From IMG/VR virus record IMGVR_UViG_3300025131_000463, positions 1-22,915 of that record: DNA of 22,915 nt. One strand, written 5' to 3'. The translations under genes and the position numbers were made by a program. The notes below the pieces were generated by a model. It ran no database searches, was not told the DNA's origin, and was given only the letters and a program-made list of their open reading frames with translations. This document shows positions 11,713 to 17,435 of this stretch, piece by piece. Source of the DNA: a virus. Numbering within the stretch: the stretch's first letter is position 1; each line of letters starts with the position of its first letter.

Positions 11713-12179
11713 TACTTGATTATCTCCGTCGATATGGCGAAAATCCCCAACGAAGTGACCGTTCCAATTCCAAACCCCAAAGCAACTAACCAGGGCGCTT
11801 GAGCAGGCTTGCGCTTCATTACTAGGTCATAAAGTCTATCATTTTCTGCTGTTTTAAGAATCATCATCTGTTCGTGGCGTGATTCCCATGACTTTATCTC
11901 TATGTCCTTGTAATTTAACTGTAAATTAAACCGCTCTTCTTGCAGATGAAGCTCGTATCCTATGCGCAAATCACACTCAGCACCCTCAAATTTCTTATCA
12001 ACAGCTATCTTTGCTGCAGCGTCCAACGATAAAAGGACCCCAGCAAACGGCGCCGGTTGGCCGGCCTCTAGAGAAACGATATCATACTCAGGAGAAGTTT
12101 CTTCTTCACCTTCCCCAAAAGCGTAGGAGGGAAGTACAAGATTAAAGATGACTAATAAAGATAATAGTTTTCTAGCCAT
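11712..12179 (-). CDS. Exported protein with C-terminal membrane segment
   Basis: I start at ATG 12179, 8 bases inside the preceding gene. A TTG two codons upstream is also open. The 155-residue product has a classical signal peptide (ARKLLSLLVIFNLVLPSYA, probable cut after Ala20), an acidic exported start, a helical middle (about 85-125) and a C-terminal membrane segment at about 128-149. The segment APFAGVLLSLDAAAKI is familiar from uncharacterised marine phage proteins. The topology (exported body, C-terminal inner-membrane anchor) is that of a one-piece spanin, but no lipobox cysteine is present, so outer-membrane lipid anchoring is not supported. It may act with the preceding gene in lysis. 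This is a context-based inference. Confidence 0.6.
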   Translation of the reverse strand: MARKLLSLLVIFNLVLPSYAFGEGEEETSPEYDIVSLEAGQPAPFAGVLLSLDAAAKIAVDKKFEGAECDLRIGYELHLQEERFNLQLNYKDIEIKSWESRHEQMMILKTAENDRLYDLVMKRKPAQAPWLVALGFGIGTVTSLGIFAISTEIIK

Positions 12180-12588
12180 GTTCAAATCCGTAAAGTTTAG
12201 CTAGCTCTCTTGAAAGCTTCTCTGGATCATTATAGCTCTCATCGATAAGATTTTTAAGTTCCTTCTTTTTCGCCGAGTCTAGAGTTTCATTTCGCTTGGC
12301 ATATTCTTCTTCTAGTGCGCGCAAGTTTTCATTATATGCCTCAAGAGCTTTCTTTTTTTCTTCCGCTTCTTTTTTGTGAGTCTCGTTAAGAACCTCAACC
12401 TCTTTTTTATAACTCGCGCGCGAACCCTCGTAAGCATCTATTACAGCCGCCAAGAAAGCAGAGTTTCTTGTGAGAGCATAAAGCAGTAACCCAACAAGCA
12501 CCATTAAAAATAATATCGGGGCCCACCAATGCGCTTTTGTCCAGGCCCATGATTTTTTTAAAAACTTTTTAACCGCTAACCACTTCAT
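12172..12588 (-). CDS. Membrane-anchored coiled-coil protein, inner-spanin-like
   Basis: This 138-residue protein has a basic N-terminus, one membrane segment at about 21-39 (WWAPILFLMVLVGLLLYAL) and a long charged coiled-coil-like region at about 55-115 rich in Lys and Glu. This is the layout of inner-membrane spanins (Rz-like), which join an outer partner to disrupt the outer membrane at the end of lysis. Tail-tube or other membrane roles cannot be excluded. A good AAGGAG lies before the start, and the start overlaps the holin-like gene's stop as TAATG. The next gene overlaps its 3' end, as outer-spanin genes often do. Confidence 0.55.
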   Translation of the reverse strand: MKWLAVKKFLKKSWAWTKAHWWAPILFLMVLVGLLLYALTRNSAFLAAVIDAYEGSRASYKKEVEVLNETHKKEAEEKKKALEAYNENLRALEEEYAKRNETLDSAKKKELKNLIDESYNDPEKLSRELAKLYGFEHG

Positions 12589-12820: not shown

Positions 12821-15800
12821 CTAGATTTCAACGTGGGCGTAGGCGCCCTTTTTGTCAATTATTATTTGAGTGTCCACGCAATCCTTTAAGCTGTCGAGAT
12901 GGGAAATCAAAATAACTGTTTTAAAAAACGATTTAATCAAATCAAGAATACGTATGAACCCCTCCATATTATCTGCATCCAACGCGGTTCCGGGTTCGTC
13001 AAGAATAAATACATCTCCCTTGGGAAGATTAGACACGCTTAAAAGAGCCAAACGAATTGCCATGGCAGCGATCGTTTTTTCTGCTCCGGAACCCATCTCT
13101 AGCGGACGTGGTTCATGCTTAGGATGTTTAATAAAAATATTTAATCGTTTCCCATCATCTTCGAAAAAGGCTTCGAAAGAAACTATGTTAGCTAAAACCT
13201 TTGCAATCTCCTCATTAATCACAGGAAGCTGCTTCTTAATAATATCATACGCAATACCGTTGGAGTGCATGCAGCGCATATAAAGATCATAGGCAGCATA
13301 TTCTTGCTGAATATCTTTTAATTCCTTTTGCTGTTCCATAAGATTGGTCGACTTTTGCTCGAGAGAACCCTTTAGCTTATAATATTCTAAAATCATATTC
13401 TGGCACCTCGTCTCTTGAACAGAAAGAGTTTCAATGGTATCCAAAACCCCCTGTCGCTGATCGGCGAGGTACTCAAAGTTTTCAATGTTCTCTCGATTAT
13501 CTTTATATTCCTCAATCTTTATTCTAATATCCGCAAGTTCGCTTTTATACGATACAATCTTATTCTTTTCTCTCGCATATGAAATCTGTAAATCTTTAAG
13601 ATCGCTTTCTTTTTTCATACGTTCAGCAATAAGATGAGTACTCTCTTGGCGATCGGCCGCAATCTTTTCAGGATTCATATCCTCTAAAAATCTTTTAAGT
13701 TCCTTTGCTTCATTAATGCTATCAAATATTTTAGTATGTAGGTGCGGGGCTTCATTCTTGGCGGTGTGAGCATCGTGGATAAATTTACATTGAGGATACT
13801 CGGTGCCACACGGCACTTCGTTTAATAATTTAAGCTTAGTGCGCTTGGTGGCATAATCTTTCTGCAGACTTCTCGCGTCTCTAACTGCCGCATCCATCTC
13901 TTCTTGTTTTATATCTATCAACTCTTGGTCGCGTTCTAATTCTTCTATATCAAATTTGCTTATATCTTCATCTAGATGTTCAAGAACGTTTTTAAACTTC
14001 TGTATACTGTCGCCTCGGTTTGAATTACTTTCTTCAGCGGCAGTTAGCTTTGACTTTAGTGCTGCTTTCTTTTTTTCAGCCTCGATAATGTCTACCACTT
14101 CATGAGGAATAGAGTCGATGGATTCGTTTACTTTTACTAATTGAAGCTCTTTTATTTCGATCTCTTCTTTAATTCTCTCACAATTTTTTTCTTGCTCTGT
14201 TAACTGCTGATCGGTTTTTATAATTTCTTTCTTAACGCTAAGTATATCCTCTTCGAAATTGCGATCCCCAATCCTACGCAGAAGACCCTTCAAATCGGCG
14301 CTGTCCTCCTTCGCAAGCCTGTACTTCTTCTCGAACACTTCCAGGTCTAGGAACTTAGCTAGAATCTCTTTACGGCGCGTAGAGCCCTCTTTAATGAAGG
14401 ATAGTGAATCTAGCTGCGATGCCATCGAAGTCAGGAGGAAATCCTCTATAGTGCCGAAATGCTTACGAATAGCCGCATCAGTTTTCATTCTGGTAGTGTC
14501 GTTAAGACTGTGGTTTTCGCTCATGATGGGATCAAAATATTCAAAATCTAAATCGGTCTTGGCTTCATCGGTCACCTCTCCCTTTAGCTTCTTAACATAC
14601 TTCTCTGAGCTGCGATTGATTGTATATACCTTATCGCCAATTTGGAGTTCTACCTTTCCAGAGCATGTAGATTTATGCTGATTAATCACGTTTAGATTTT
14701 TGCGCTCATTCTTAGACGTCGTGTTAAATATTGTATAGAGCAATCCATCAATAATGCTGGACTTGCCTGAGAAGTTCTTTCCAAAAATTCCAACAATTCC
14801 ATTTAACTTTTCAAAATCAACTCTATTGTTCTTGCCATAGTTGAAAAGATTGTCCCACTCAAAGTTATTCAGTTTCCAATTAATATTTCTTGCTACGTCT
14901 TCTGTGGCTTCTGCCATCTTATTGTACTTTTGGTTTAGGTTATTGACGCGCTCCATCATTTCACCGGTTGCTTCATAATCTTTAAGATATTCCTTCATCA
15001 ATCTTTCTTGTACAGAAATATCTCGTAGATTTTCCTTATAGAAGCTGTGTCCTGATGCATTAATGCTGCCTCTTTGGCCGGCAGCTCTATTCAGGAATGT
15101 GATGCTCTCTGGAGCAAAGCGATGCTTCGCAACTTCGACTGCTCTCTTCATAACATTCAACGGAAGATTGTTGTTGCTCACAAGCCGTATACGGGCCCCA
15201 GAGGGCACCGTCGTGCCCCGGGGCATCCTACCCTTCGGCGTGAGTTCAATGGTCACAAAGGGCTTGGGGTTAAGCAGCTTGACGTGTCTTACGCTGAACT
15301 CGTCCTTATTTTCTATATCCCATATCAGGAAGCCCTTATCGTTCGTCTCCCCGTGATTTTGCTGCACGATCGATCCGCAGTAGCGTACGCGGCCTTCATG
15401 ATCCAGAATCTGATTAGTCTTGTGAATATCTCCGAGCATTGCATAATCGTGGCCACCAAAAATAGACACGTCGTGATCGCCATGCTCCATTACCCAGCCA
15501 ACATCTGTCTGTACTCCTGCAATCGATCCGTGATAAACGGCAATATTGATCTTACTTGGATCTGACGGTTCTACCCAATTTTCTTCATCGAATATAGAAA
15601 GAACATTCATCGTCAAATCTGAATTCATCTCCACTTCGCCCGAGTTCTTTAACAGATGAAGCCGTGGATGTTGAAGTGCTTCGACGATTGGCGTGATCGC
15701 GTCCTGTCGAGATGAGTTGCGTAGGTTGCCGTCGTGGTTTCCTAAGATTACATAAGTCGGTGCTATATCAGCTAGCGTTGACAAGAATGTCGAGCACATA

Positions 15801-15976
15801 TCAACAAACTCTGGAGATATTTGTGTCTTCGTGTGGGCGATGTCACCGCCGATGTAAATAAAATCTACTTCTTCTTCGCGAAGCGTTTCGTACATCTGTT
15901 CAAATACCTTGCGATATTCATAATGATATTTTAAATTCTTAATGTGGACGTCTGCGCAGTGCGCAATTTTATACAT
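12821..15976 (-). CDS. Fused Mre11/SbcD nuclease and Rad50/SbcC ATPase
   Basis: This 1051-residue protein joins two proteins that are separate in T4 (gp47 and gp46) and in bacteria (SbcD and SbcC). Residues 1-240 are an Mre11-type phosphoesterase: CADVHI (Asp9, His11), YIGGDIAH (Asp45), LGNHDG (Asn80, His81), VYHGSI (His149), GGHDY (His176) and LGDIHK (His185). A capping-like region and linker follow to about 370. The Rad50-type part has Walker A GKNFSGKSS (399-407), two long coiled-coil arms with Cys723 and Cys730 between them, signature MGSGAEK (961-967), Walker B VFILDEPGTALD (989-1000) and a switch His in ISHLD (1026). In T4 the complex processes DNA ends for recombination-dependent replication. 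All key motifs are present, so it should be active. SD is AAGGAA. Confidence 0.95.
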   Translation of the reverse strand: MYKIAHCADVHIKNLKYHYEYRKVFEQMYETLREEEVDFIYIGGDIAHTKTQISPEFVDMCSTFLSTLADIAPTYVILGNHDGNLRNSSRQDAITPIVEALQHPRLHLLKNSGEVEMNSDLTMNVLSIFDEENWVEPSDPSKINIAVYHGSIAGVQTDVGWVMEHGDHDVSIFGGHDYAMLGDIHKTNQILDHEGRVRYCGSIVQQNHGETNDKGFLIWDIENKDEFSVRHVKLLNPKPFVTIELTPKGRMPRGTTVPSGARIRLVSNNNLPLNVMKRAVEVAKHRFAPESITFLNRAAGQRGSINASGHSFYKENLRDISVQERLMKEYLKDYEATGEMMERVNNLNQKYNKMAEATEDVARNINWKLNNFEWDNLFNYGKNNRVDFEKLNGIVGIFGKNFSGKSSIIDGLLYTIFNTTSKNERKNLNVINQHKSTCSGKVELQIGDKVYTINRSSEKYVKKLKGEVTDEAKTDLDFEYFDPIMSENHSLNDTTRMKTDAAIRKHFGTIEDFLLTSMASQLDSLSFIKEGSTRRKEILAKFLDLEVFEKKYRLAKEDSADLKGLLRRIGDRNFEEDILSVKKEIIKTDQQLTEQEKNCERIKEEIEIKELQLVKVNESIDSIPHEVVDIIEAEKKKAALKSKLTAAEESNSNRGDSIQKFKNVLEHLDEDISKFDIEELERDQELIDIKQEEMDAAVRDARSLQKDYATKRTKLKLLNEVPCGTEYPQCKFIHDAHTAKNEAPHLHTKIFDSINEAKELKRFLEDMNPEKIAADRQESTHLIAERMKKESDLKDLQISYAREKNKIVSYKSELADIRIKIEEYKDNRENIENFEYLADQRQGVLDTIETLSVQETRCQNMILEYYKLKGSLEQKSTNLMEQQKELKDIQQEYAAYDLYMRCMHSNGIAYDIIKKQLPVINEEIAKVLANIVSFEAFFEDDGKRLNIFIKHPKHEPRPLEMGSGAEKTIAAMAIRLALLSVSNLPKGDVFILDEPGTALDADNMEGFIRILDLIKSFFKTVILISHLDSLKDCVDTQIIIDKKGAYAHVEI

Positions 15977-15987
15977 GCATGGGTTCC

Positions 15988-16929
15988 TTAAACCAGTATA
16001 GTTCGTTGAAGTAGTTCTTCGAAGTTCATTCGAGTTGTATTGTTTTTTCTATTCTCGAACTCTTTCTTCGGCATCTCTCCAAGATCTTTATACGGTTCTA
16101 TATCTATCTTATACAATTCTACATCATATGTCAAGAGGTTTTTGATAATTTCTAGTGCTTTTCTTTCGGCGTCTGGGTCAAGCGCAATATATACCGAGGC
16201 GTCTTTCTGTACAATCTTTCGGAAGAGATGTGAATCCACACGCAGAGTAGACCCCAACAAAGGAATACTATTGCGCCCAGCCACAATGGCATCGAATACA
16301 CCCTCCACCAAGACTATATTTGAGGTCCAGTCAATAGAAAGATCATTAAACACAACATCTCTATCGACAGGTGGATTTTTATATTTTGGATAGCCGCCAT
16401 CATACGTACGGGAAATAAAGTAATCAACATTTCCATTTTCATTAAACGAAGGAATGATGATTCGATTTCCGTATTCTCCTGTTGAACAGTACCCTATCTT
16501 CCACCAAATAATATCTTTCTTCGCTATACCCCTCTCCTTTAAATACTTCCTCGCCATAAAACCTGTCGGTGGCATTTCTTTATTTGCAAGAGAAATATAT
16601 TCTTTTGGAAGGGGAATGATTTGTTCGGGCTTTTTCTTCTTCTCAAAATGTTCCAGGAGATCCCAACGATCTAAATCGCGATAATCTACTTCTGTATCAA
16701 GCCGCAGCCAATTCTGACGATGTCTATACTCTCCAAATTTTCTGACTACATGATATAGGTTGCGACCGCGGGTGTCACAGACCCAACATTTATATACATT
16801 TTTTGTTAGATTAACTGAGAACTTGGGTTTATGATGACTACAGTAGGGACAATTAAAAAGATACTCCCCATTAGTTCTCCGACAAGAGCCAAGAATTTCT
16901 CTTAGGATGAAAAGCTTTTGTTCTTCCAT
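15988..16929 (-). CDS. DNA primase, DnaG-type with zinc finger and TOPRIM
   Basis: This 313-residue protein has an N-terminal zinc-binding domain (Cys27-x-x-Cys30 and Cys48-x-x-Cys51, in FNCPYCSHHKPKFSVN and YKCWVCDTRG). A primase core follows (RKYLKERGI, GNRIIIPSFNENGNVDYFISR) and then a TOPRIM domain with IVLVEGVFDAI (Glu209) and IALDPDAERKA (Asp251, Asp253). It would make RNA primers for lagging-strand synthesis. T4 gp61 (342 residues) is of similar size and type. There is no helicase domain and no helicase gene nearby. The start lies 28 bases inside the end of the resolvase gene, without a strong ribosome site, which suggests coupling. Confidence 0.92.
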   Translation of the reverse strand: MEEQKLFILREILGSCRRTNGEYLFNCPYCSHHKPKFSVNLTKNVYKCWVCDTRGRNLYHVVRKFGEYRHRQNWLRLDTEVDYRDLDRWDLLEHFEKKKKPEQIIPLPKEYISLANKEMPPTGFMARKYLKERGIAKKDIIWWKIGYCSTGEYGNRIIIPSFNENGNVDYFISRTYDGGYPKYKNPPVDRDVVFNDLSIDWTSNIVLVEGVFDAIVAGRNSIPLLGSTLRVDSHLFRKIVQKDASVYIALDPDAERKALEIIKNLLTYDVELYKIDIEPYKDLGEMPKKEFENRKNNTTRMNFEELLQRTILV

Positions 16930-17435
16930 AAAGCATGTCCCGCGCGAGCCATAACTATGCTGTCGGCTCTATCATAATAACCCGGCTTTGGATTACCATG
17001 CTTTGTATATTCTACCTTAAACGCAGGCATCTTGTCAAGGAGAAACTTTAAAACCTCTTCTTTTGCTTTAGTCCCGCGCGGGATTTTAATCTCATTCAGC
17101 TTCCTTGCTTGACTGGCGCCCAGATATTGCGGATCCATGTGGAAGGTATCCCTAATGGCTACCGATGCCATCCCATTAAATCGCTGTAGAATAGCCATTG
17201 TTTTGCCGCTCGATCCTCCGCTATTAAAAAACACGAATGGCTCTTCAATCCAAATTTCTTGAACCGCTGCTTGCAAGAATCTTATGTTGCCTAAAAACTC
17301 TCTAAATCTATCTATCTTTGCAAACAACCCTTTTTCTTTTCGAAGGTCACAGTGCTCACAAAATATTATTTCACCATGCGAACTAACGCACGAAACACCT
17401 ATAATGCTTGTGCTAATATCAAATCCTAAAAACAT
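16902..17435 (-). CDS. RuvC-like Holliday junction resolvase
   Basis: This 177-residue protein has the RNase H-fold nuclease layout of RuvC: a first acidic strand GFDISTSIIG (Asp6), a second strand IWIEEP (Glu64 or Glu65), a helix with KAKEEVLKFLL and a C-terminal DRADSIVMARAG (Asp155, Asp158). It is close in size to bacterial RuvC (about 173 residues). It would cut branched DNA from recombination before packaging, a job done by the unrelated endonuclease VII in T4. The gene overlaps the 493-residue structural gene's end and the primase start. RuvC-fold phage endonucleases vary in substrate, so the exact target is inferred. Confidence 0.85.
   Translation of the reverse strand: MFLGFDISTSIIGVSCVSSHGEIIFCEHCDLRKEKGLFAKIDRFREFLGNIRFLQAAVQEIWIEEPFVFFNSGGSSGKTMAILQRFNGMASVAIRDTFHMDPQYLGASQARKLNEIKIPRGTKAKEEVLKFLLDKMPAFKVEYTKHGNPKPGYYDRADSIVMARAGHALWKNKSFSS

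Follow-up and report, generated by a model that had tools for sequence, protein, structure and literature searches.

A virus record of 22,915 bases, called here the window and carrying T4-type portal, head maturation protease and terminase genes by Pfam and PHROGs matches, contains one long gene in which an Mre11-like (SbcD) nuclease runs into a Rad50-like (SbcC) ATPase. The locus raises the questions of what such a joined chain would do for a phage, whether the junction is genuine and shared, and which parts of the protein depart from known Mre11-Rad50 systems. We approached them through 171 related IMG/VR loci collected in three scans (hereafter the relatives), with 164 full-length members used for family tallies.

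Domains of the joined chain

The gene is a single open reading frame that opens with ATG, has AAGGA 8 nt upstream, and starts only a few bases past the stop codon of the primase gene on the same strand. Pfam places Metallophos (PF00149, over the cut-off) at residues 3-176 (6e-11) and AAA_23 at residues 376-609 (5e-9), and PHROGs adds an SbcD-like match at residues 1-271 (4e-33) and an SbcC-like match at residues 318-1046 (2e-52). An AlphaFold2 model of the chain, built on a 68-row alignment, has a mean pLDDT of 82.7 and a single-chain pTM of 0.51, a value at which the model does not establish the relative placement of the domains. The chain and its parts are as follows.

12821..15976, minus strand: Mre11-Rad50 (SbcD-SbcC) fusion gene, 1051 residues (sequence, Pfam and PHROGs matches)
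15278..15976, minus strand: Mre11-like nuclease domain, residues 1-233 (Pfam and PHROG matches, motif tallies, AlphaFold2 model, S. aureus SbcD 7dog)
15089..15259, minus strand: capping domain, residues 240-296 (AlphaFold2 model, DSSP; 7dog alignment reaching residue 296)
14906..15019, minus strand: predicted two-helix (HLH-like) segment, residues 320-334 and 338-357 (AlphaFold2 model)
14882..14905, minus strand: junction linker, residues 358-365 (8 residues), from the helix pair to the first Rad50 strand (AlphaFold2 model, span lengths)
14342..14881, minus strand: Rad50 head lobe I, residues 366-545, with Walker A 399-406 and Q-loop Q521 (Pfam, motifs, AlphaFold2 model, structural matches)
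13817..14341, minus strand: coiled-coil arm 1, residues 546-720, including C599 (AlphaFold2 model)
13787..13816, minus strand: hook apex, residues 721-730, C723-x6-C730 (VPCGTEYPQCKFI; sequence, family tallies)
13268..13786, minus strand: coiled-coil arm 2, residues 731-903, including C858 (AlphaFold2 model)
12827..13255, minus strand: Rad50 head lobe II, residues 908-1050, with signature 961-967, Walker B 989-994, D-loop and H1026 (motifs, AlphaFold2 model, structural matches)

The nuclease is calcineurin-like, with metal-binding motifs I-V that are conserved across the family and read D9xH11, GD45IAH, GNH81D, H149 and GD183IH185 in the window, and the positions of the Mre11 metal site are occupied. 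Two motifs deviate. At motif V, which is GDIH in all 164 members, an Asp replaces the H206 ligand of P. furiosus, and at motif II a His replaces the third Asp. Motif II reads GDxxH in 147 of 148 members, all except LR756501, in a tally made before the final 16 joined the set. Given these two changes, metal use or nuclease activity could differ from the usual. The Asp in motif V is not unique to fusions, since the SbcD of Vibrio phage D386, a split form, has it too (GDLH).

The ATPase half carries the complete bipartite ABC set, namely Walker A (GKNFSGKS in the window), Q-loop, signature (MGSGAEK), Walker B, D-loop and switch His, with motifs that are near-invariant in the family. Structural matches for the head are E. 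coli SbcC (Z 30.5) and an archaeal protein, Rad50 (3av0, Z 30.0); residues 1-296, the nuclease plus cap, match S. aureus SbcD (7dog, Z 23.9). After the nuclease follow the capping domain, seen in both the model and the 7dog alignment, a loop of low confidence (residues 299-313) and the helix pair, which comes from the model and is predicted at the position of the Rad50-binding domain of Mre11, where it might dock in a like manner. The modelled helices 546-720 and 731-903 make up an antiparallel coiled coil whose apex bears a cysteine pair; two apex cysteines are present in 161 of 164 members.

An earlier note on this DNA had described one unbroken 1051-residue frame with nuclease and ATPase motifs, in that order and with the full motif set. 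The single frame, the Pfam and PHROGs matches and our motif reading bear this out, and the residue numbers given there (D9/H11, H185, Walker A 399-406, signature 961-967, Walker B 989-994, switch H1026) are correct. That reading overlooked GDIAH in motif II, GDIH instead of GHxH in motif V, and a hook of the Cx6C rather than the CxxC type.

Genomic setting and likely role

Two neighbouring genes bear on the role of the fusion.

15988..16929, minus strand: DnaG-type primase, directly upstream of the fusion (Pfam and PHROG matches)
16902..17435, minus strand: RuvC-fold protein, 177 aa (AlphaFold2 pLDDT 92.5; top Foldseek matches RuvC, E 2e-6 to 6e-6)

Sequence matches of the RuvC-fold protein are weak, and its modelled fold makes it a probable Holliday junction resolvase. 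The primase lies no more than 500 nt upstream of the fusion in 114 of the 149 relatives with a match, and the fusion sits between the primase and lysis or structural genes, an arrangement that most relatives share. Just downstream, among small open reading frames, an Rz-like spanin match (E 3e-5) falls at 12172-12588 on the minus strand. The window being a 22.9-kb fragment, the recombinase is seen in relatives: a UvsX-like protein is encoded in 10 of 12 contigs of 104-204 kb, and in L099 UvsX lies between SSB and an exonuclease. The fusion is the sole strong SbcC/SbcD match in these 12 long contigs, and a search of them for a second, split Mre11-Rad50 pair found none; a single SbcC match is present in each of three further contigs of 145-245 kb. 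In contig G006 there is an additional weak metallophosphatase match. Flavobacterium phage immuto (L097), the nearest named phage by terminase, gave no SbcC/SbcD match; at 14403-16107 of this phage, an exonuclease (phrog_298) directly follows the primase, in the place that the fusion takes in the window.

Collectively, we consider it very probable that the gene encodes a fused Mre11-Rad50 of an uncultured T4-like phage and performs the job of T4 gp47 and gp46, a pair with the same domains, the same gene order (47 before 46) and the same inferred role. The T4 proteins are thought to be the main end-resection enzymes ahead of Gp32/UvsY/UvsX loading (PMC3016280), and, judging by family and context, the fusion would likewise act in DNA end resection. 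Two chains would dimerise via their heads, nuclease and apex, and the heads, by binding and hydrolysing ATP, would open and close the access of DNA ends to the nuclease. Phage DNA ends would thereby be resected to 3' single strands, which SSB and UvsX would take into recombination-dependent replication and repair, with the adjacent primase and the putative RuvC-fold resolvase serving the same pathway. The 1:1 ratio of nuclease to ATPase that the earlier note attributed to a single chain follows from the sequence; the fusion would also tether the helix pair beside the ATPase head, its docking site in split complexes. The order Mre11 then Rad50 fits the known complex, where the Mre11 C-terminus lies about 28 Å from the Rad50 N-terminus (PMC3175470).

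Such an enzyme might instead serve mainly to degrade host or competitor DNA and so feed the nucleotide supply during takeover, rather than replication-linked resection. The T4 record leads one to expect both roles together, as gp46/gp47 are needed for recombination as well as for host-DNA degradation. However, the genomic neighbours of the fusion are recombination and replication genes (RuvC fold, primase, and UvsX in relatives); we regard degradation as an unlikely main job, although the context is compatible with it as a second one. Far less probable still, and hard to credit, is a Lamassu/SMC-type defence or counter-defence protein in place of an end-processing enzyme. LmuB is itself an SMC/Rad50-like ATPase, and the match of the PADLOC LmuB profile to residues 379-1034 (E 8e-27) is expected from the shared fold, whereas the PHROG SbcC match is stronger, a full Mre11 nuclease is fused to the ATPase and the gene keeps its place between primase and lysis or structural genes. 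The Lamassu assignment was rejected on context, as the LmuB profile match stands alone among a primase, a RuvC fold and a spanin-like gene, with no LmuA effector beside it.

Junction, distribution and known fusions

The resection enzyme proposed here is encoded in one piece, and split operons are the usual phage form. A sequencing or assembly artefact that fused two adjacent genes has nonetheless next to no probability and is refuted in practice by the junction evidence, with no split in the 171 related contigs, a length-invariant junction, purifying selection and a single gene in the isolate Mel-JY01. The frame is open in every locus that spans the junction. Residues 316-376 of the window correspond to 61 residues in 116 and 62 in 46 of the 164 full-length members (61 or 62 in 162), in line with the set linker between nuclease and head that had been claimed before. 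Over junction codons 320-375, the counts of synonymous and nonsynonymous differences from the window are 19 and 3 for L002, 21 and 1 for L003, and 17 and 2 for L005; the junction is under purifying selection. Because no relative is split, the junction length is near-constant and selection is purifying, the fusion frame is real and not a sequencing error. The earlier note had named a frame error at the junction and a close relative with two genes and an intact junction as findings that would speak against it. The mostly synonymous differences and the open frames answer the first, and no instance of the second turned up among the relatives; the commonness of the fusion in this phage group, which that note had left open, can be given as common.

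Some loci that looked like exceptions were rejected as such. L050 and L088, considered as broken genes, each have an intact 1065-codon frame, and LR756508, considered as a split relative, is broken inside the nuclease with its junction intact. Downstream of the intact gene, the final 60 codons of the fusion recur as a diverged second copy in L050 (9186-9365) and in L088 (6959-7899), where an open reading frame for a GIY-YIG homing endonuclease lies between gene and copy. In LR756508 (L095, 3527-7749), the nuclease domain is interrupted shortly past GDIHK by a 305-codon open reading frame with an HNH endonuclease family match; an Rfam search for an intron at this interruption found none.

The fusion per se is of a published kind and is not new. 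Yoshida, Claverie and Ogata (Yoshida et al. 2011) reported them not only from Mimivirus (R555) but also from a Bacillus phage, bacteria, plasmids and eukaryotes, and inferred that phages carry many of the marine metagenomic copies (PMC3175470). The earlier remark that T4 and bacteria encode two proteins holds for T4, where genes 47 and 46 lie apart with 46.2 and 46.1 between them, and, for bacteria, as the usual case, the published fusions including bacterial and plasmid ones (PMC3175470). Apart from being one open reading frame, the window protein differs from the T4 pair in its motifs (GDIFD and GHFH in T4) and in its hook (CPTC in T4). R555, as described in the paper, shares several traits with it: Mre11 is N-terminal and Rad50 C-terminal in a single chain, with both domains in one open reading frame, the linker is of similar length to that of the window family, the fusion is the only Mre11-Rad50 version in the virus, and the identical two active-site substitutions, a His at the third Asp position in motif II and an Asp where P. 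furiosus has H206, are reported (PMC3175470). R555 has 1351 aa, against 1051 aa for the window protein, which comes from a T4-like phage. The fold search ranks giant-virus proteins first: the best full-length BFVD matches to the model are mostly from giant viruses, among them a Tupanvirus protein (22% identity, E 1e-60), followed by pT24 and PTm1.

Only a minority of named phages have the fused form, namely Microcystis phage Mel-JY01, Tenacibaculum phage pT24, Rhizobium phage RHph_TM21B and the two huge-phage genomes LR756501 and LR756508. In T4, Vibrio D386, S-B68, phiM12 and S-SKS1 the pair reads as two genes; the genes of split operons overlap in Vibrio phages and lie closely spaced in cyanophages and Sinorhizobium phages. 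The Mel-JY01 gene (183173-186373) is a single-gene fusion that aligns with 99% of the query (30% identity), with a primase just upstream and a terminase 46% identical to that of the window; unlike the window, it has a canonical CxxC hook, and it is annotated merely as 'AAA domain containing protein'. BPT24_019 of pT24 (1310 aa) and the RHph_TM21B protein likewise have nuclease and Walker A in one frame but differ in their CxxC hooks and, for pT24, in greater length. The RHph_TM21B fusion (L107, MN988560.1, 3992-6561) is unannotated and interrupted only by a run of Ns. In both the nuclease and the ATPase trees, in which long branches meet, all fused rows cluster except RHph_TM21B, which lies beside split forms; the fusion may have arisen more than once. 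Only eight matching loci were found in bacterial and archaeal genomes, all in MAGs and at least some of them phage contigs. One, the WOR-3 MAG chromosome CP070664.1 (L112), contains a block of phage genes, among them the fusion, a primase and a RuvC-like gene, that runs into N gaps and is either a prophage or a mis-scaffolded phage.

The full-length genes and their genomic context support what was inferred in 2011, namely an abundance of R555-type fusions among aquatic phages. They also provide many compact (about 1050 aa) single-chain Mre11-Rad50 enzymes for structure work, with fixed stoichiometry and one protein to express.

The cysteine hook

An apex CxxC has been described as conserved in Rad50 across all life (PMC5093744). 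The window protein, with C723-x6-C730, is set apart as a variant because it departs from this trait described as universal; CxxC is widely shared, and the head and nuclease assignment does not rest on it. Hook types among the 164 members are CxxC in 93, Cx6C in 58, Cx7C in 10 (68 for the latter two together) and other in 3. C730 is near-fixed (162 of 164), and its partner sits 3 residues earlier in CxxC or 7-8 residues earlier in Cx6C and Cx7C hooks, with cysteines at both partner positions, 723 and 727, in L077 only. T4, Vibrio D386, S-B68, phiM12, S-SKS1, AG-345-L05, pT24, RHph_TM21B, LR756501 and Mel-JY01 all have CxxC. The apex is a conserved island, with a mean identity of 49% against 23-25% in the arms, where cysteines are otherwise scarce (0.6%).

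A FastTree tree built from the nuclease and heads requires at least six changes of hook type. CxxC members (L030/L032/L041, L049/L056, L085/L092, L078 and L090) are nested among Cx6C relatives, to whose heads their own are 67-99% identical; in L090 and L074, the head lobes are 96% and 99% identical and the hooks differ. The hook of L030 resembles that of L118, a distant member (52%), more than it does that of L014 (34%). Near-identical heads carrying different hooks, together with the likeness of the L030 and L118 hooks, suggest that the apex is exchanged as a cassette between relatives. Chimeric assembly is an unlikely general cause, since there are five separate cases. We lean slightly towards a family Rad50 hook with two interchangeable geometries, CxxC and Cx6C/Cx7C, whose type would have been switched in this cassette-like manner.

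We did not find the Cx6C/Cx7C hook described, and it is apparently the undescribed part of an already known fusion. Named phages, plasmids and the PDB yielded no Cx6C-like hook to a 29-residue family consensus, a short query and hence a weak test, and a literature search that mostly did not extend to subscription papers returned no description of a Cx6C hook. If the Cx6C pair binds zinc, a metal hook would not require CxxC, and the type of hook might decide which complexes pair. The variation amounts to a natural experiment on hook requirements and pairing, for which close relatives whose heads are near-identical but whose hooks differ offer ready-made pairs to test.

A further cysteine pair lies within the arms. 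C599 (14180-14182) and C858 (13403-13405, both minus strand) occupy roughly opposed positions on opposite arms; they occur together in 63 of 164 members and each alone in only 2, and they change jointly in 5 of 6 independent tree pairs, a pattern that makes an inter-arm contact between them possible.
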